DNA from: [Clostridium] aerotolerans DSM 5434
GTDB taxonomy: Bacteria > Bacillota > Clostridia > Lachnospirales > Lachnospiraceae
DNA length: 64,000 bases
Direction: 5' to 3'
NCBI RefSeq assembly: GCF_000687555.1
Contig: NZ_JHWJ01000001.1
Coordinates: 310,001 to 374,000 of the forward strand
In this document: positions 3,753 through 64,000 of the stretch, in pieces
Layout: each line of letters begins with the position of its first letter
Numbering within the stretch: the stretch's first letter is position 1
Position numbers and translations under genes: made by a program
Notes under the pieces: model-generated
Seen by the model: only the letters and a program-made list of their open reading frames with translations
Databases searched by the model: none
Told to the model about the DNA's origin: nothing

Positions 3753-5594
3753 ATGAAGATGAAAAGAGAAGACGTAAGAAATGTGGCAATTATTGCCCAC
3801 GTCGACCACGGTAAAACCACATTAGTAGATGCCTTGTTAAAGCAAAGCGGTATTTTCCGTGAAAATCAGGAAGTTATGGAGCGCGTCATGGACTCCAATG
3901 ATATTGAACGAGAGCGTGGAATCACGATTCTGTCAAAAAATACAGCAGTTCACTACAAAGATACCAAAATCAACATCATTGATACACCTGGACATGCCGA
4001 TTTCGGTGGAGAAGTAGAACGAGTTTTAAAGCTTGTTAACGGTGTTGTACTTGTCGTTGATGCTTATGAAGGTGTTATGCCTCAGACAAAGTTCGTTCTT
4101 AGAAAAGCATTAGAGCTGGGACTTTCCGTAGTTACCTGTATTAATAAAATCGACCGTCCGGAAGCTAGAGCTGAAGAAGTTGAGGAAGAGATCTTAGAGC
4201 TTCTTATGGACCTTGATGCCACCGAGGAGCAGCTTGACTGTCCATTTGTTTACGCATCTGCGAAAACAGGATTTGCCAAAAAGACTCTGGATGACCCATC
4301 AGAGGATATGGCTCCTTTATTCCAGACTATTATCGACCAGATTCCAGCACCAGAAGGTGATCCGGATGCATCTACTCAGCTTTTAATCAGTACCATCGAT
4401 TATAATGAGTATGTAGGCCGTATTGGTGTAGGTAAAGTGGATAACGGCAAAATCCGTGTCAATCAGGACTGTGTTATCGTAAATCATCATGAACCTGACA
4501 AATTCCGCAAGGTTAAAGTAGGTAAGCTTTATGAGTATGAAGGTCTGAATAAGGTAGAAGTACAGGAAGCATCCATTGGTGCCATCGTAGCTATCTCTGG
4601 TATTGCTGATATCCATATCGGTGACACCCTCTGCTCTACAGAGAATCCGGAAGCTATCCCATTCCAGAAGATTTCTGAGCCTACCATTGCTATGAACTTT
4701 ATTATCAATGACAGCCCTCTCGCTGGCCAGGAAGGAAAATTCGTAACTTCCCGTCATATCAGAGAGCGTCTTTTCAGAGAATTAAATACAGACGTCAGCC
4801 TTCGTGTAGAAGAGACAGATTCTCCTGACAGCTTTAAGGTATCCGGTAGAGGAGAGCTTCACTTATCTGTTTTAATTGAGAACATGAGAAGAGAAGGCTT
4901 TGAATTCGCAGTTAGTAAGGCAGAGGTTCTCTATCATTACGATGAGAGAAACCAGAAGCTTGAACCTATGGAAATCGCTTATATCGATGTTCCGGAAGAA
5001 TTCACCGGAGCTGTTATCCAAAAGCTTACCAGCCGTAAGGGCGAGCTTCAGGGCATGAGTCCTGCCAACGGCGGATATACAAGGCTGGAAATCTCCATTC
5101 CTTCCAGAGGTCTTATTGGTTACCGTGGGGAATTCATGACAGATACTAAGGGAAATGGTATTATGAACACTGCTTTTGACGGTTATGCACCATATAAGGG
5201 AGAAATCTCTTACAGAAAGACTGGTTCCTTAATCGCTTATGAATCAGGAGAATCCATTACCTACGGTCTTTACAATGCTCAGGAAAGAGGTACTCTTTTC
5301 ATTGGCGCAGGCGTAAAGGTTTACTCTGGTATGGTAATCGGACAGAATCCAAAGGCAGAAGACATGGAAATCAATGTCTGCAAATCAAAAAAACTGACCA
5401 ACACTCGTTCTTCTGGTGCAGACGATGCTCTTAAGCTGACTCCTCCAAGAGATATGAGCTTAGAGCAGTGTCTTGATTTCATTGATACCGATGAGCTTTT
5501 AGAGATCACTCCTGTAAGCCTTCGTATCAGAAAGAAGATTCTTGATCCGACCGTTAGAAAAAGAACAACTGCTAATAAAAAATCTTTAGGTTAA
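3753..5594 (+). CDS. typA: Translational GTPase TypA/BipA
   Basis: This 613-residue ribosome-associated GTPase of the EF-G superfamily acts in ribosome assembly and stress or cold adaptation in other bacteria. The G domain shows AHVDHGKTT (G1), RGITILSKN (G2), [11 protein letters not shown] (G3) and NKIDRPEA (G4). Downstream are the beta-barrel domain II, the EF-G domain III and V-like regions, and the BipA-specific C-terminal domain (around GLYNAQERG). The open frame extends to a GTG at 3693, but the conserved family N-terminus starts at the ATG at 3753 (or 3759). The SD is weak and A/G-rich only. It is flanked by a leader hairpin and a strong terminator, so it is monocistronic. Confidence 0.97.
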
Positions 5595-5605
5595 TCTGTA
5601 ATATC

Positions 5606-5670
5606 ATGGGGAATGCTGACGTTCATCGCCGAGAAAACGGTGTTGGACCAGCATTCCCCATTATTTTTTG
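5606..5670 (+). terminator. Rho-independent terminator of typA
   Basis: A 13-bp perfect stem (5606-5618 with 5649-5661) has a 30-nt loop and is followed by TATTTTTT. Confidence 0.85.
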
Positions 5671-5796
5671 TGCATTATGCCTGGTCCTGTCGATATTTTT
5701 GGATTGTTTTATATCATTTTTGTGTGTTCTGCCTCATAAATTTAATAATAGCTGTGAAGCGTATTAGCAAATAAGTGAAAGAAGAGGAGAAATACA

Positions 5797-6423
5797 ATGT
5801 CAGAAAAAATGATTGAAAACAACAAAGTAAGCGTTATCGGGGAGATTGTCTCCGGCTTCACCTTTAGCCATGAGGTGTTTGGAGAAGGATTCTATATGGT
5901 GGATCTGGCAGTAAACCGTTTAAGCGATCAAGCTGATGTCATACCTCTCATGATTTCAGAACGCCTGATCGATGTCAATGGAGATTACTCTGGATGTACA
6001 ATCGAGGCAGTTGGACAGTTCCGTTCATACAATCGCCATGAAGGAACGAAAAACCGCCTGGTGCTTTCTGTGTTTGTAAGAGAGATCCATTTTATGGAAG
6101 AATTTACCGATTATACAAAGACCAATCAGATTTTACTGGATGGATACATATGTAAAGCTCCCATCTATAGAAAGACTCCCCTTGGAAGGGAAATCGCTGA
6201 TTTGCTGCTGGCAGTGAACCGGCCCTATGGGAAATCCGATTACATACCCTGTATTGCATGGGGAAGAAATGCCAGATATGCTTCCGGTTTCAACGTAGGC
6301 ACCAGAGTTAAGGTATGGGGCAGGGTTCAAAGCAGGGAGTATACCAAAAAATTAAGTGAGACAGAATGTGAAAAGCGTATTGCTTATGAAGTCTCCGTCA
6401 GCAAACTGGAATGTACAGAGTAA
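5797..6423 (+). CDS. Single-stranded DNA-binding protein with two OB-like halves
   Basis: This 208-residue protein resembles bacterial SSB but appears to hold two OB-fold units in one chain. The first spans about residues 8-105 (KVSVIGEIVSGF ... FVREIHF) and the second about 110-205 (NQILLDGYICKAPIYRKTPLGREIADLLLAVNR). The second half carries the usual SSB motif TPLGREIADLLLAVNR and IPCIAWGRNAR. There is no acidic DDDIPF-type C-terminal tail, so it is probably not the replicative SSB. A strong SD (GAAGAGGAGA) precedes the ATG. The gene stands alone. Function beyond ssDNA binding is inference. Confidence 0.75.
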   Translation: MSEKMIENNKVSVIGEIVSGFTFSHEVFGEGFYMVDLAVNRLSDQADVIPLMISERLIDVNGDYSGCTIEAVGQFRSYNRHEGTKNRLVLSVFVREIHFMEEFTDYTKTNQILLDGYICKAPIYRKTPLGREIADLLLAVNRPYGKSDYIPCIAWGRNARYASGFNVGTRVKVWGRVQSREYTKKLSETECEKRIAYEVSVSKLECTE

Positions 6424-6461
6424 AAACTGTGGCTCATATATTAAGAAAATGGTAAGAAAAC

Positions 6462-6490
6462 TTGCAAAAGTTTTAAATTTATGATACTAT
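6462..6490 (+). promoter_or_regulatory. Sigma-A promoter of the CobO-like gene
   Basis: TTGCAA (6462-6467), a 17-bp spacer and TACTAT (6485-6490), about 60 bp before the start. Confidence 0.6.
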
Positions 6491-6550
6491 AAGCAGGTTC
6501 TAACGTAATATGTATGTTATTGCATTTTAGCTGTTATGAGGTGCGAAAGG

Positions 6551-7057
6551 ATGAATAGAGGTACGATACAAGTAATATGCGGCGAAGGAAAAGGAAAGAC
6601 CACAGCTGCATTTGGTATGGGAATCGAAGCTCTTATGAAAAACAGGAGTGTTATCATTATACAGTTTTTAAAAGGCTGTACCGGAAGGGGTTCCCTTGAT
6701 ATTATCAAGCGCCTGGAACCGGAGATGAAGATATTCCGTTTCGAAAAAAGTGATGGTTTCTTTGAAAATCTGTCAAAGGAAGAGCAGGAAGAGGAGCGGA
6801 TGAACATCCGCAATGGTCTTAATTTTGCCAGAAAAGTCCTCTCCACAGGGGAATGCGATTTGCTTATCCTCGATGAGATTCTTGGAATACTGGACCAAAA
6901 CATTGTAGAGGCTGAGGAGCTGATCCGCCTGTTACAGTCAAAGGTTGATGACATGGAGGTCATATTGACCGGTAAGGTATTTTCCAAAGAGATAGAACCT
7001 TATGTAGACAGCATTTTGGAAATCAATCATGTTAAAGTTGACAACACAAAACAATAA
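6551..7057 (+). CDS. CobO/BtuR-like ATP:corrinoid adenosyltransferase family protein
   Basis: This 168-residue P-loop protein begins with GTIQVICGEGKGKTTAAFG, the modified Walker A motif of the CobA/CobO/BtuR family, which transfers the adenosyl group of ATP to cobalt in corrinoids. The Walker B-like LLILDEILGILD lies at about residues 106-117. The usual family length is 170-200. The frame opens at 6536, but GAGGTG (6538-6543) sits 7 nt before the ATG at 6551, which I prefer. No other cobalamin gene is visible nearby. Clostridial genomes often carry divergent paralogues, so the substrate is uncertain. Confidence 0.75.
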   Translation: MNRGTIQVICGEGKGKTTAAFGMGIEALMKNRSVIIIQFLKGCTGRGSLDIIKRLEPEMKIFRFEKSDGFFENLSKEEQEEERMNIRNGLNFARKVLSTGECDLLILDEILGILDQNIVEAEELIRLLQSKVDDMEVILTGKVFSKEIEPYVDSILEINHVKVDNTKQ

Positions 7058-7081
7058 TGATAGTATGGTAACATACATAAT

Positions 7082-7249
7082 AGAGTAGAGGTTGCGTTGC
7101 TTATTAGTACTCTGTCCGATGTATCAGGTACAGATGAGGGCAGAGGGAAGGAAGAGACGCCGAAGTTCGGTACGTCCTGAGCGTATCCGTTCTGGGCATA
7201 TGGTTAAGAGCCGTATGACTGTCATCCAAGTTGGATGGGGAGCTACTTA
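7082..7249 (+). ncRNA. Lysine riboswitch (L box) aptamer
   Basis: The conserved landmarks appear in the right order: AGAGGTTGCG, GGAAGGAAGAGACGCCGAAG, the GGTTAAGAGCC stem, GACTGTCAT and GGGGAGCTACTT. The 5' AGTAG and 3' CTACT segments form P1. The location directly before dapA agrees with lysine feedback on diaminopimelate synthesis. Confidence 0.95.
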
Positions 7250-53178: not shown

Positions 53179-53393
53179 TTCTCTCTCAAATTGCAATTGC
53201 AGTGATAAATTTTTAAATCTGACAAAAAAATATCCGATTATTTTGATGATTTTTATAGATTCTGTGTTCAATAAATTGTGAAATATAAAAATGAGGAAAA
53301 GAATTTTCACATATTATCATTGACATTGCCCTTATGGTCAAAGGTTATAATAAAACCATAGATATACTTTTTAGAAAAAATGAGGTGGTTGTA

Positions 53394-53759
53394 ATGGAAA
53401 GAGAAAACGGAGAGCAGATCCGCATCGTACAGGAAACCGTAGCCGGAAGAGAAATCACGCTGGCACATATCATTGGAGGACCATTACCAATTGTATACCG
53501 TAAACTGGGCCTTAATCCGGAGATTGATTACCGTTCCTCTGCAATTGGAATTATGAACATGACGCCCCCGGAATCCGCAGTTATAGCCTCTGATATTGCA
53601 GTAAAGAGCGGAGATATTTATCTTGGCTTTGCAGACAGATTCAGCGGAACTCTCATCATCACAGGGGAAATCGCAGATGTAATGGCTGCAATTACGGAAA
53701 TTGTGGATTATTTTCACAATTCCTTAGGATACGTGACCTGTCCGATTACAAAGCGGTGA
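53394..53759 (+). CDS. EutS/PduU-type bacterial microcompartment shell protein (first copy)
   Basis: This 121-residue protein has the circularly permuted BMC fold of EutS/PduU: EQIRIVQETVAGREITLAHIIGG, then GIMNMTPPESAVIASDIAVKSGDIYLGFADRFSGTLIITG, split by a short loop. In enterics such hexamers close the shell. TGAGGTGG precedes the ATG at 53394; the upstream frame to 53334 is not conserved. It starts a three-gene unit (eutS-eutP-eutS). No other BMC shell or enzyme gene is in the window, so this is a satellite locus. Confidence 0.9.
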   Translation: MERENGEQIRIVQETVAGREITLAHIIGGPLPIVYRKLGLNPEIDYRSSAIGIMNMTPPESAVIASDIAVKSGDIYLGFADRFSGTLIITGEIADVMAAITEIVDYFHNSLGYVTCPITKR

Positions 53760-53763
53760 TGCT

Positions 53764-54261
53764 ATGAAGAAATTATTTTTGTGCGGCAGGAGTGAAGCCG
53801 GTAAGACCTCCCTCACTCAGGCATTAAAAGGAGAGCCGGTGGTCTATCATAAGACTCAGTACGTCAATCATTGGGATATTACCATAGATACACCAGGCGA
53901 ATACGTGGAAAATAAAAATCTGGCCCTCCAGGGCCTTTGTTGTTTTACCTATGAATCGGACGTCATAGGTCTTCTTTGCAGTGCCAATGAACCCTTTAAC
54001 CTATTTCCTCCCGGTGTCTCTAATGCCTGCAACCGGCCGGTCATCGGCATTATTACAAAAATCGACTGCAAGGATGCCAAGGTTCCCATGGTCAGGCAGT
54101 GGCTGGAGGAAGCTGGTTGTGAGAAGATATTTCCGGTGAGCAGCATAACGGGGGAGGGAATGGATGAACTCCTTTCCTTCTTAAAGGAAGAAAAAGAAGC
54201 ACTGACCTGGGAAGAAATTATGGAGGCCCAGGAAAAAGGCCTTCGGGAGTGGAATTTATAA
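53764..54261 (+). CDS. EutP/PduV-family small GTPase-like protein
   Basis: This 165-residue P-loop protein has GRSEAGKTSLTQAL at residues 8-21, a short G3 equivalent TIDTPGEYVENK and G4-like ITKIDCKDA. The family is associated with ethanolamine and propanediol microcompartments; its PduV member sits on the shell and influences compartment placement. It starts 5 nt after the first eutS-like gene. The nearby SD is weak, so coupling from the upstream gene is likely. Confidence 0.9.
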   Translation: MKKLFLCGRSEAGKTSLTQALKGEPVVYHKTQYVNHWDITIDTPGEYVENKNLALQGLCCFTYESDVIGLLCSANEPFNLFPPGVSNACNRPVIGIITKIDCKDAKVPMVRQWLEEAGCEKIFPVSSITGEGMDELLSFLKEEKEALTWEEIMEAQEKGLREWNL

Positions 54262-54294
54262 GCAGTAAAACAACAAGGATGAAAGTGTGATAAG

Positions 54295-54726
54295 ATGTCA
54301 GATAAGATAGAAACTGAATTGGACGTACTAAGTGTCTTTGCCCGGGGGAATGAATCAGCAAGTACCGGACGGAGGCGCGTGGTTAATATGACTGTGGCAG
54401 GACGGGAGATTTCTCTGGCCCATGTAATTGGTGTTTCCGAGGCGTCGGTATATAAGAATCTGGGACTTGACATCGGAACCAATGCTGATGTTGATTTTAC
54501 TGGTATGTCCATTGGAACCATTAATATAACGCCTCCGGAATCCGCTGTGATCGGGGCAGATATCGGAGTGAAAAGTGCAGATGTTACTATTGGCTTTCTG
54601 GATCGGTTCAGTGGAACTTTAATACTTACCGGCCCCAGGATTGAAGTAAGAACTGCTGTGGAAGAAATTGTAACTTACTTTAAAGAAGAACTTAAATATA
54701 AGACCTGCCCGGTAACGGAGCGATAA
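54295..54726 (+). CDS. EutS/PduU-type shell protein with an N-terminal extension (second copy)
   Basis: This 143-residue protein has the same EutS/PduU core as the first copy (MTVAGREISLAHVIGV, ITPPESAVIGADIGVKSADV, GFLDRFSGTLILTG) but begins about 22 residues earlier with KIETELDVLSVFARGNESAS. The extension could be an amphipathic targeting helix. It has an extra loop (IGTNADVDFTG). It lies 33 nt after the EutP-like gene. Together the two copies could form mixed hexamers. Confidence 0.9.
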   Translation: MSDKIETELDVLSVFARGNESASTGRRRVVNMTVAGREISLAHVIGVSEASVYKNLGLDIGTNADVDFTGMSIGTINITPPESAVIGADIGVKSADVTIGFLDRFSGTLILTGPRIEVRTAVEEIVTYFKEELKYKTCPVTER

Positions 54727-61773: not shown

Positions 61774-63447
61774 TTAGGGAGGTAAAAGCCGTTCAAACAA
61801 ACGGTTTACTTCCACCTGACCGTATCCCCAGATATTATTGGGATAAGAGTAGGCAGGATTTCGGACCGCTCCGCTTATCATAAGGCGATTGGCATCATTT
61901 CCAGTCATTCTTAAATAATTTTCTCTTACAATGGCCCATTCAAAGACCATGGCAAGAATTCCGGCTGCATGGGCAGCAGCGGCTCCTGTACCTGTAGCTG
62001 TGCCGTATAGATTACCTGGCACAGCACATGTAAGCTGATACCCTGGTGCTGCAATATCTGGCTTTATCTGCCCGGTCCTTGTATAACCTCTGCTGGAGGT
62101 AGGAAGAATGCTGTCGTTATCTTGATTATAGGCAGTGACCGTCAAAGTGTGTCTTGTGTTTCCAGGTGCGGTAATGGTCGTATCCGGGTTAGAATTTAAG
62201 AAAAAGGTTCCATTTGATAAAAGGTCCCCGGAAGGGAGCCAGGAATGGAAGGAAAAAGGTTCATTTTCAGTTGCCTGGATGCGTAGATACCAGATTCCGG
62301 GAAGAGGATTATTAAAACGCAGAAGAATCATCTGATCTCCAGTTTGTTCTTCAAAGATCGTGTTATTTACGTAGATGGTAGTCTGGTTGAAAATGAAAGT
62401 AAATCTCCTGCACTGGTTCAAGGTGGGATAGATGGGCTGTGTGGATTCCCGGTTTGGAGAAGATATATCTATGGTAAGTCTGGCTGGCGAAAAGGACCAG
62501 ATTTCCAGAAAGAACATGGTGTCCTCCTCACCGATTCTGAGCTCCACATCATTATAGAACGGAGGAGCGGCAGTAGAATTGAAATAATGCCTCTGATTAT
62601 TTCCTTCATTCCCTGCGGATACAGAGACTCCATTGCCGGGCAGAAGGGTAAGATGGTCAAGATAATCACTTAATGGCCCTCGTCCAGTATGCCCACCTTG
62701 GCTGGTGCCCATAGCGATGCATATGACCACGGGGCGATTAAGGCGTGCTGCCACCGTTATAGCATACCGGGAACCCAGGATCAGATCAGACTCCTGATAA
62801 CATACTTTATTTTGAGGCACAAAAAAGATAGATTTTAAGCTTTCTTTCGCCTCTTTTAACTTAACGATAATATATTCAGCCTGGGGAGCAACTCCCCGGA
62901 AGGATTGCTCTTCATCAGGAGTGCCTGCCAGAATGCTGGCGATAGCAGTTCCGTGACCATTGGTATCCGTTGTGGGAACAATGGAAAGAGGGTCTTCCGC
63001 GTTTAATGCTGTATTAATTTCATCCCTGCTGTATTCAGATCCAAAGGTAAACTCTTCAGGAATGGTCCCGGTTTGCACGGTCTGATCCCAGATGGATACA
63101 ATCCGTGTGGTCCCATCGCTGTTTCTGAATGCCGGATGCCTGTAATCAATGCCGGTATCAATAACAGCCACTAACACTCCGCTTCCGAAAAAGGCAAGGT
63201 CAGGATTATTCTGTACCGCATTAACACCAGATTTTTCAAGGCTGACAGTGGAAGTCTGGGTAAACAAATATGGAAAACTGCTGTAAGAATGACGTCCTAA
63301 ATCACAGGGGTTTGGGGTTCCAATGGGAATATGAAGCAACGAGTTTTGACGGTTCAAATAAGTAATGTTGTCACCCGTATCGTAAGTGGGAGCCAAAGCT
63401 GTAGTGATCATTAAGTCGTAGTAACCATTATCTAGAATTTTGGACAA
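61774..63447 (-). CDS. Csp-like S8 subtilisin with a Ser-to-Gly catalytic change (pseudoprotease)
   Basis: This 557-residue protein resembles the clostridial Csp-type subtilases. Catalytic Asp97 (VAVIDTGIDYRHP), His165 (DTNGHGTAIAS) and the oxyanion Asn280 (SAGNEGN) are present. The serine motif, normally GTSxAxPH, reads GTGAAAAH: residue 488 is Gly (codon GGA at 61986-61984), so proteolysis should be lost. There is no signal peptide, as in the Csp family. The TTG at 63447 has AGGGGGG 6 nt upstream and is the likely start. A pseudoprotease role in spore germination, as for CspC of Clostridioides difficile, is inference. Confidence 0.9.
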   Translation of the reverse strand: MSKILDNGYYDLMITTALAPTYDTGDNITYLNRQNSLLHIPIGTPNPCDLGRHSYSSFPYLFTQTSTVSLEKSGVNAVQNNPDLAFFGSGVLVAVIDTGIDYRHPAFRNSDGTTRIVSIWDQTVQTGTIPEEFTFGSEYSRDEINTALNAEDPLSIVPTTDTNGHGTAIASILAGTPDEEQSFRGVAPQAEYIIVKLKEAKESLKSIFFVPQNKVCYQESDLILGSRYAITVAARLNRPVVICIAMGTSQGGHTGRGPLSDYLDHLTLLPGNGVSVSAGNEGNNQRHYFNSTAAPPFYNDVELRIGEEDTMFFLEIWSFSPARLTIDISSPNRESTQPIYPTLNQCRRFTFIFNQTTIYVNNTIFEEQTGDQMILLRFNNPLPGIWYLRIQATENEPFSFHSWLPSGDLLSNGTFFLNSNPDTTITAPGNTRHTLTVTAYNQDNDSILPTSSRGYTRTGQIKPDIAAPGYQLTCAVPGNLYGTATGTGAAAAHAAGILAMVFEWAIVRENYLRMTGNDANRLMISGAVRNPAYSYPNNIWGYGQVEVNRLFERLLPP

Positions 63448-63507
63448 AATTAACCCCCCTGCCAATTTAGCAAAGTATATGCTATATCTTATGCAGAGGG
63501 GCTTAGA

Positions 63508-64000
63508 TTATGAGTTTTGGCTGCCTGTTTGTGGGGCAGCCGCAGCTGGTCCTGAAGATCCATTGACAGGTGCTCCTTCCACTGGAGGTACCTGAGCTGC
63601 TTCTGTGCTTGGGGTAAAGGTTGATTTACCGGCTTTCTTTAAATATTCTATAATTCCCTTGGCATCGGCTTCTCCAAGGGCTTTGTAAGACTCCTCAGTG
63701 GAGAGATAAGAGGTTAAATCGCTGGTGTGATTAATAAATCCGTGCTCAATGATAAATCCTCTGATGCCATACATCTGGGAGTAACGAGGAATTGCATAGT
63801 AATCCGCCAGGCTTCCATCCGGGAACATGGTTCCATTTTGAGAATCTCTAAGGATCAGCCCTCTGTTATGAAGCCCTATTGAGCTGAGCTGTCCTAAAAT
63901 AGTATTGGCGGCTTCCTGGGACTGAAGAGCAAGCTCGTTGTTGAAGCGGCCTGTTTTCGGTGCCATGGAGCTTACTCCATAGGCATTTTTAGTTACTCCA
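63508..64000 (-). CDS. N-acetylmuramoyl-L-alanine amidase (partial, enters the window at its right edge)
   Basis: This is the C-terminal part of an Amidase_3-type cell-wall hydrolase. The frame stays open past the internal Met at 63966 to position 64000, so the start lies beyond the window. The visible part has GLHNRGLILRDS and the catalytic Glu segment IIEHGFINHTSDLTSYLS. A Pro/Ala/Gly-rich tail (PPVEGAPVNGSSGPAAAAP) ends it. It cleaves the amide bond between MurNAc and L-Ala. The S8 gene lies 60 nt downstream on the same strand. Confidence 0.88.
   Translation of the reverse strand, partial: GVTKNAYGVSSMAPKTGRFNNELALQSQEAANTILGQLSSIGLHNRGLILRDSQNGTMFPDGSLADYYAIPRYSQMYGIRGFIIEHGFINHTSDLTSYLSTEESYKALGEADAKGIIEYLKKAGKSTFTPSTEAAQVPPVEGAPVNGSSGPAAAAPQTGSQNS

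Follow-up and report, generated by a model that had tools for sequence, protein, structure and literature searches.

In Clostridioides difficile, the pseudoprotease CspC (PDB 6mw4) is implicated in bile-acid germinant sensing, and CspA (PDB 9pr8 and 9pr9) is its pseudoprotease partner. Both are soluble and are thought to relay germinant signals to CspB and then to SleC, according to the parts of PMC12880746 that treat them. In the relevant passages of PMC6636752 and PMC12880746 (February 2026), pseudoprotease Csps are described as particular to Peptostreptococcaceae, and the Csps of Lachnospiraceae as having intact triads or being predicted to be active; for the intact triads, PMC6636752 there cites Kevorkian et al. 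Csp proteins in gut spore formers are mentioned in the sections concerned of PMC8401671 and PMC8953710, which do not mention Ser-less Csps of Lachnospiraceae, and excerpts of the open-licence literature yielded no report of such proteins.

Here we analyse a csp-like gene of a 4.73 Mb genome whose genus was taken as Lacrimispora. The gene lies in a stretch of 64,000 nucleotides, which was analysed as a whole and is called the window below.

Results

A Csp-family protein with glycine at the nucleophile position

The gene occupies 61774..63447 on the minus strand and encodes, as judged by translation, Pfam and predicted fold, a Csp-family S8 pseudoprotease of 557 amino acids followed by a stop. 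Its longest ORF opens at a TTG at 63465, and the TTG start at 63447 agrees with the MxKILDN start common to the paralogues. The catalytic Asp97 (63157..63159), the catalytic His165 (62953..62955) and the oxyanion Asn280 (62608..62610) are encoded on the same strand, and a GGA codon at 61984..61986 places Gly488 at the nucleophile position within the motif GTGAAAAH. A sequence-only reading of this DNA had claimed exactly this combination of three intact residues and a GGA codon (61986-61984) for the nucleophilic Ser, and both the translation and a column alignment bear it out. When aligned with CspA, CspB and CspC, the window protein has Gly in the nucleophile column 488, and residues D105, T170 and G485 of C. 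difficile CspC fall into columns 97, 165 and 488. Across the Asp, His, Asn and nucleophile columns, the four PDB references read DQNA (CspA), DTNG (CspC), DHNS (CspB of C. difficile) and DHNS (CspB of C. perfringens).

The assignment to Csp-type subtilases, also made by that reading, agrees with both sequence matches and predicted fold. The protein contains an S8 subtilase domain (PF00082, E 2.8e-33), and its best eight sequence matches among solved structures are Csp germination proteins, with CspA at the top. A Foldseek search with its AlphaFold2 model (mean pLDDT 93.8) returned Csp chains in the 11 best rows (E 8.8e-49 to 6.4e-43), the next row following at 9.1e-13, and a structure alignment took in 90 of the 95 listed sequences. 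The predicted model aligns to CspC over residues 9-557 and to CspA over residues 10-555, and it has the jelly-roll insertion and N-terminal prodomain expected of the Csp family. The protein scored 294 bits with the NCBIfam CspC model NF040808, below the cut-off of 675, and 316 bits with the CspBA fusion model NF040809 (cut-off 1250), where the best stretch covered profile positions 628-1098 only. Neither of the two marks of CspB, an intact Asp-His-Ser triad and a CspB_prodomain (PF18425), was found in it, the latter being absent from its Pfam matches at E up to 1. The missing catalytic nucleophile (Gly488) is the mark of Csp pseudoproteases of the CspA/CspC kind, and His165 is present, unlike the catalytic His lost from C. 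difficile CspC.

Age of the serine loss

We aligned 172 ORFs; the trees exclude 10 that exceed 750 amino acids, most of them apparently Csp fusions. Thinning of the other 162 plus four references gave first 145 and finally 99 sequences, and IQ-TREE was run on these 99 after removal of the four catalytic columns. The Ser-less Lacrimispora proteins grouped with proteins of Eisenbergiella tayi, [Clostridium] fimetarium and C. aminobutyricum in 29 rows with an SH-aLRT support of 100. The nucleophile position in these rows is Gly in 27, Cys in one and Ala in one, and Ser in 0/29. A fuller clade of 83 distinct members, composed of a FastTree clade of 62 rows (support 1.0) and 21 rows assigned to their nearest row, has Gly in 80, Cys in two, Ala in one and Ser in none. 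All four Gly codons occur at position 488, which, together with the 80 of 83 relatives carrying Gly, rules out a single base-calling error. The catalytic Asp is kept in 83/83 clade rows, and the catalytic His and oxyanion Asn in 82/83 each. Between the window gene and its three nearest orthologues (dS under 1.6), dN/dS was 0.05-0.07, and the median over 95 clade pairs was 0.08. On the evidence of the tree, the Ser was lost before the seven paralogues arose by duplication and before the lineages of E. tayi, [C.] fimetarium and C. aminobutyricum separated from theirs; judged by its dN/dS, the window gene is under strong purifying selection.

The inactivation, proposed earlier to be independent, is probably independent of that in C. 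difficile CspA/CspC as far as the tree can tell. The tree itself separates the clade from these two proteins, its nearest neighbours being Ser-type Csps (those with Ser at the nucleophile position) of other clostridia, but an AU test of uniting the clade with CspA/CspC did not reject the union (p 0.116). Ser is also replaced outside the clade, by Gly in loci L135 and L075 and by Cys in locus L103. In L135, from a Candidatus Epulonipiscium MAG, a Csp at 4602-7241 (plus strand) with Ser replaced by Ala, His by Ser and Asn by Glu adjoins the Ser-to-Gly Csp, and from their residues the two are perhaps another Csp pseudoprotease pair outside Peptostreptococcaceae.

Conserved core and clade cysteines

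In 77 Ser-type Csps, 39 columns reach a conservation of at least 97%. All but two of them (488 and 333) also reach at least 90% in the clade, leaving 37 retained. The conserved core is thus without decay beyond the nucleophile, unlike that of C. difficile CspA/CspC. Column 333 was considered as a second hallmark and rejected. It is Gly in all Ser-type rows and Arg in 64/83 clade rows, but Gly in 5/83 (E. tayi, [C.] fimetarium and C. aminobutyricum among them), and the remaining 14 rows divide among nine other residues.

Five cysteines, all encoded on the minus strand, are invariant in the clade. Cys48 (63304..63306), in the prodomain, occurs in all 81 clade rows with a residue there as against 0/72 Ser-type rows, and Cys346 (62410..62412), placed in the jelly-roll region by alignment to Csp structures, in 83/83 as against 0/77; these two are clade-specific. 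Cys474 (62026..62028) lies in predicted strand 472-476, 14 residues before Gly488 (83/83 versus 2/77 Ser-type rows). The other two are more widespread: Cys243 (62719..62721; predicted strand 240-244) is found in 83/83 clade and 52/77 Ser-type rows, and Cys216 (62800..62802), at the end of a loop that is perhaps the counterpart of the clamping loop of CspC, in 83/83 and 30/76. All five together occur in none of the 77 Ser-type rows. According to the predicted model, they would sit in the prodomain, a loop, a core strand, the jelly roll and the active-site loop, and we propose, from their conservation, that they may form disulfides or bind a metal.

Paralogues in the genome and the genus

Nine Csp-like S8 genes were found in the genome, seven of the Ser-to-Gly form, one of the Ser-type and one CspB with an intact triad. 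The other six Ser-to-Gly paralogues are 55-64% identical to the window protein, and two pairs of the Csp-like genes are adjacent (contig C1, 288-292 kb; contig C3, 104-108 kb). On contig C10, about 3 kb separate the Csp gene from the end of a preceding RHS-like ORF of 1041 amino acids, recognised by eye (L162:47-3172, plus strand). In genome G010, four such genes stand in a row. The state of the nucleophile was read from fetched loci among the Csp matches, and Ser-less Csps are present in every Lacrimispora genome whose loci were read. Among the matches listed, Csp matches per genome number from at least 4 to 14 over 19 Lacrimispora genomes, Ser-type included, and Ser-type Csps other than CspB also occur in at least four Lacrimispora genomes.

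The Ser-type Csp of the same genome (L027:1504-3225, minus strand, contig C18) has the oxyanion Asn280 replaced by Gln, a different active-site change within the genome that carries the Ser-to-Gly paralogues, and it has Cys243 and Cys474. Among the matches listed for the 18 other Lacrimispora genomes, a 91% identical fragment of it appeared only in G010. In genome G013, a Ser-to-Gly Csp that lacks the full set of five cysteines (L239:1480-3198, minus strand) lies beside a Ser-type Csp and possibly represents another independent loss. A Csp pair in a record titled Paenibacillaceae bacterium SIG288 (L065) shares its catalytic motifs with the Csp pair of Lacrimispora defluvii (L064); probably the record name is wrong or the contig is foreign.

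Putative germination partners and receptors

The genome is of the Lachnospiraceae type, as had been supposed from the sequence, and a search for a second, active Csp found that it encodes an intact CspB (L159:4026-5753) with Asp-His-Ser in place and a CspB_prodomain. Of 19 Lacrimispora genomes, 18 have CspB and the one without it is 67% complete; the nucleophile is Ser in 19/19 Lacrimispora CspB sequences. The gene immediately upstream of cspB, with which it shares the strand, encodes a 758-residue SpoIID/LytB-domain protein (L159:5778-8054, minus strand, contig C3) with an N-terminal stretch that looks membrane-like by eye. SleC is found in 19/19 Lacrimispora genomes, in two pieces in two of them, and that of the genome studied here matches the solved pre-pro SleC (PDB 9h68) at E 1.3e-129.

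GerAC had no match in 17/17 Lacrimispora genomes, nor in 113 of the 120 Lachnospiraceae genera sampled. Its lack is hence a family trait and no pointer to pseudoproteases in particular; as a specific link to them it was ruled out, since most sampled Lachnospiraceae share it. Weak GerAB matches in 6/17 Lacrimispora genomes (E 1.9e-5 to 2.1e-4; frames of 463-468 amino acids; two over the Pfam cut-off) are presumed to be other permeases. Each of the 12 Lacrimispora genomes searched has one GerA-family match, which spans a stop in four. In the genome studied here it is an ORF at L158:4621-6114 (plus strand, contig C2) that has neither gerB nor gerC beside it and, from its sequence, could be an orphan receptor.

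Of the 120 genera, 77 gave a Csp match with an E value of 1e-100 or lower. From these 77, we read 30 loci, one per genus, and 26 of the 29 other than our own hold Ser-type Csps. The best loci of three genera other than Lacrimispora show the Ser-less form; these perhaps include E. tayi, [C.] fimetarium and C. aminobutyricum. The loci read agree with the published view of active Lachnospiraceae Csps for 26 genera, and disagree with it for Lacrimispora and three others.

Neighbourhood and a sigma-E-like element

An Amidase_3 gene (63508..63999, 3' part only in the window; 315 amino acids in the genome) immediately precedes the csp gene on the same strand at a distance of 60 bases, and its product has a signal-like N-terminus by eye. 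The cell-wall amidase neighbour seen by the sequence-only reading is thus confirmed, and amidase, csp and dus stay together in 8 of 18 hand-picked candidate-orthologue loci. Elsewhere in the window, at 53334-54726, a small EutP/PduV-like GTPase is encoded between two short proteins that resemble microcompartment shell proteins, all three recognised by eye.

In C. difficile, sigma-E promoters have an ATA motif at -35 and the csp operon has a sigma-E promoter (PMC3789822, in the part concerned), and cspBAC is listed in the SigE regulon in the pertinent section of PMC7438776. We searched for the pattern ATA, 14-17 bases, CATA. A sigma-E-like element, ATA-N15-CATAAGAT, was found at 63486..63511 on the minus strand, its first base 64 bases before the start codon. 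The element overlaps the end of the upstream amidase gene, so the window csp gene may, on the strength of this motif, have its own promoter. Between -100 and -40, such an element is present in 63 of 81 testable clade genes (two of the 83 had fewer than 100 bases upstream and were excluded) versus 4 of 133 other ORFs of the Lacrimispora loci (Fisher p 1.7e-32), and 52 of the 63 elements fall at -62 to -68. The control ORFs were taken at their longest-ORF starts, some of which may be misplaced, and were reduced from 134 to 133 because one of five control hits was itself a Csp. Within 250 bases, 68/83 clade genes have the element, compared with a mean of 9.0 and a maximum of 15 in 50 shuffles, and 22 of 30 clade genes retain it after thinning at 75% identity. 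These counts are inflated by the shared descent of the paralogues and are support, not proof. Patterns for sigma-K, sigma-G and sigma-F occurred before 10, 7 and 0 of the 83 genes versus shuffle means of 7.2, 0.6 and 0.5. In the same genome, the search for the sigma-E pattern gave no site ahead of cspB, sleC, the amidase gene or the GerA-like gene, and only 22/75 Ser-type Csps have it within 300 bases of the first ATG. The motif suggests sigma-E control of the clade genes.

Discussion

By alignment, tree and substitution rates, the Ser-less Csp family is real, old and conserved, and the Lachnospiraceae genus Lacrimispora has its own large family of pseudoproteases in addition to an intact CspB. 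By analogy with C. difficile, a role in germination is likely. Our preferred reading, to which we give a probability of about 60%, is that the seven dead Csps are sigma-E-made, spore-borne germinant sensors or relays that stay unprocessed and act on CspB and, through it, on SleC. They would be made in the mother cell from a sigma-E-type promoter and would keep their prodomain, there being no self-processing without the nucleophile. A CspB serine mutant does not self-process (PMC3567191, in the portion on this mutant), so the prodomain of Ser-less Csps should stay in place. Presumably packed into the spore as soluble sensors or signal relays, they would target the single active protease CspB, which would then mature pro-SleC for cortex degradation; with several divergent pseudoproteases acting on one CspB-SleC pair, the spore would have several inputs. 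Spore presence, an uncleaved prodomain, CspB interaction and ligand sensing are what we infer here; the open-licence literature yielded no experiment on any clade member and, by title and abstract, no Lacrimispora germination paper.

The Csp fold, the expression signal and the partners would also fit spore proteins that are not sensors, which might help to pack or stabilise their partners or, as stoichiometric inhibitors, keep CspB inactive. Such roles would be consistent with the retention of 37 of the 39 core columns, as a substrate-like cleft could, for example, hold a prodomain, and with the need of C. difficile CspC for CspA to enter the spore (PMC12880746, in the passage on the pair). 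Seven divergent paralogues (55-64% identity) and several Csps per genome, however, fit several inputs better than one packing task, and we regard a purely non-sensory role as unlikely, though it is the strongest of the alternatives. Much further down we place the reading that the proteins are still enzymes, with the nucleophile moved to position 487 (Thr, Ser or Cys) or to Cys474, or with a different reaction carried out by the Asp-His pair. D97, H165 and N280 are indeed kept, residue 487 is T, S or C in 83/83 clade rows, and Cys474 is fixed near Gly488. However, residue 487 is also T or S in 74/77 Ser-type Csps and is thus an ordinary residue there, the Cys at 488 in two members and Ala in one are unlike one conserved new chemistry, and a need in folding or prodomain binding may be why Asp and His persist. 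The sequence-only reading had allowed for a different chemistry; we found no positive evidence for it and consider this enzymatic reading quite improbable. The sequence-only reading had also suggested a recent inactivation. A recent loss, or a sequencing error, in one gene would suit the intact remaining active-site residues of the window protein, but Gly in nearly all relatives through all four codons with Ser in none, the clade support of 100, the low dN/dS and a loss older than both the duplication and the split from other clostridia contradict it, and we give it practically no chance.

A more speculative extension of the sensor reading concerns the cysteines. Ser loss and the gain of Cys48, Cys346 and Cys474 might be one transition to a cysteine-gated switch, with low redox or metal as germination signal; we consider this doubtful. 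These bacteria are anaerobes. Disulfides or a bound metal would hold the prodomain, jelly roll and cleft to one another while the dormant spore is oxidised. Reduction would free them once the spore is back in an anoxic habitat, or losing the metal would, whereupon CspB would act. Low redox or metal would then be sensed in parallel through seven paralogues.

If the clade works like CspC/CspA, soluble dead-protease sensing would be a more general germination solution, possibly evolved more than once, and the control of CspB by dead proteases would be open to study in a genus with several natural paralogues. For Lachnospiraceae, where 113 of the 120 genera sampled gave no GerAC match, Ser-less Csp genes help to bring the question of the germinant receptors within reach of experiment.

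Among known systems, CspA is structurally the closest, with the highest Z (52.5) to the window model and the nucleophile lost in both. In CspA, however, Ser is replaced by Ala and His by Gln, whereas the window protein has Gly for Ser and keeps His. CspA is made as a CspBA fusion (PMC12880746, in the part describing it), whereas the window gene encodes a single Csp, and it lacks the four comparable clade cysteines. CspC, too, lacks these four cysteines; it has also lost the catalytic His (T170), which the clade keeps, and is encoded in a cspBA-cspC locus, in contrast to the seven scattered paralogues here. Its interface residues differ as well. The residues that form the hydrogen-bond network and salt bridges of the CspC:CspA interface, as given in the relevant section of PMC12880746 (Q516, T520, D429 and R456 of CspC; R896, D1008, R1036, Q1090, Q1094 and T1098 of CspA), lack conservation in the clade; a dimer of this form should therefore not be taken for granted. 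A differing interface, a retained His and seven members argue against a system that simply replicates that of C. difficile. CspB (PDB 4i0w, C. perfringens; L159:4026-5753 in the genome studied here) keeps Asp-His-Ser, of which the window protein lacks the Ser, and the CspB of this genome has the CspB_prodomain that Pfam did not find in the window protein. The Ser-type Csps of Anaerocolumna, Lachnotalea, Blautia, Robinsoniella and others share D, H, N and the 37 of 39 core columns with the clade, but have Ser.
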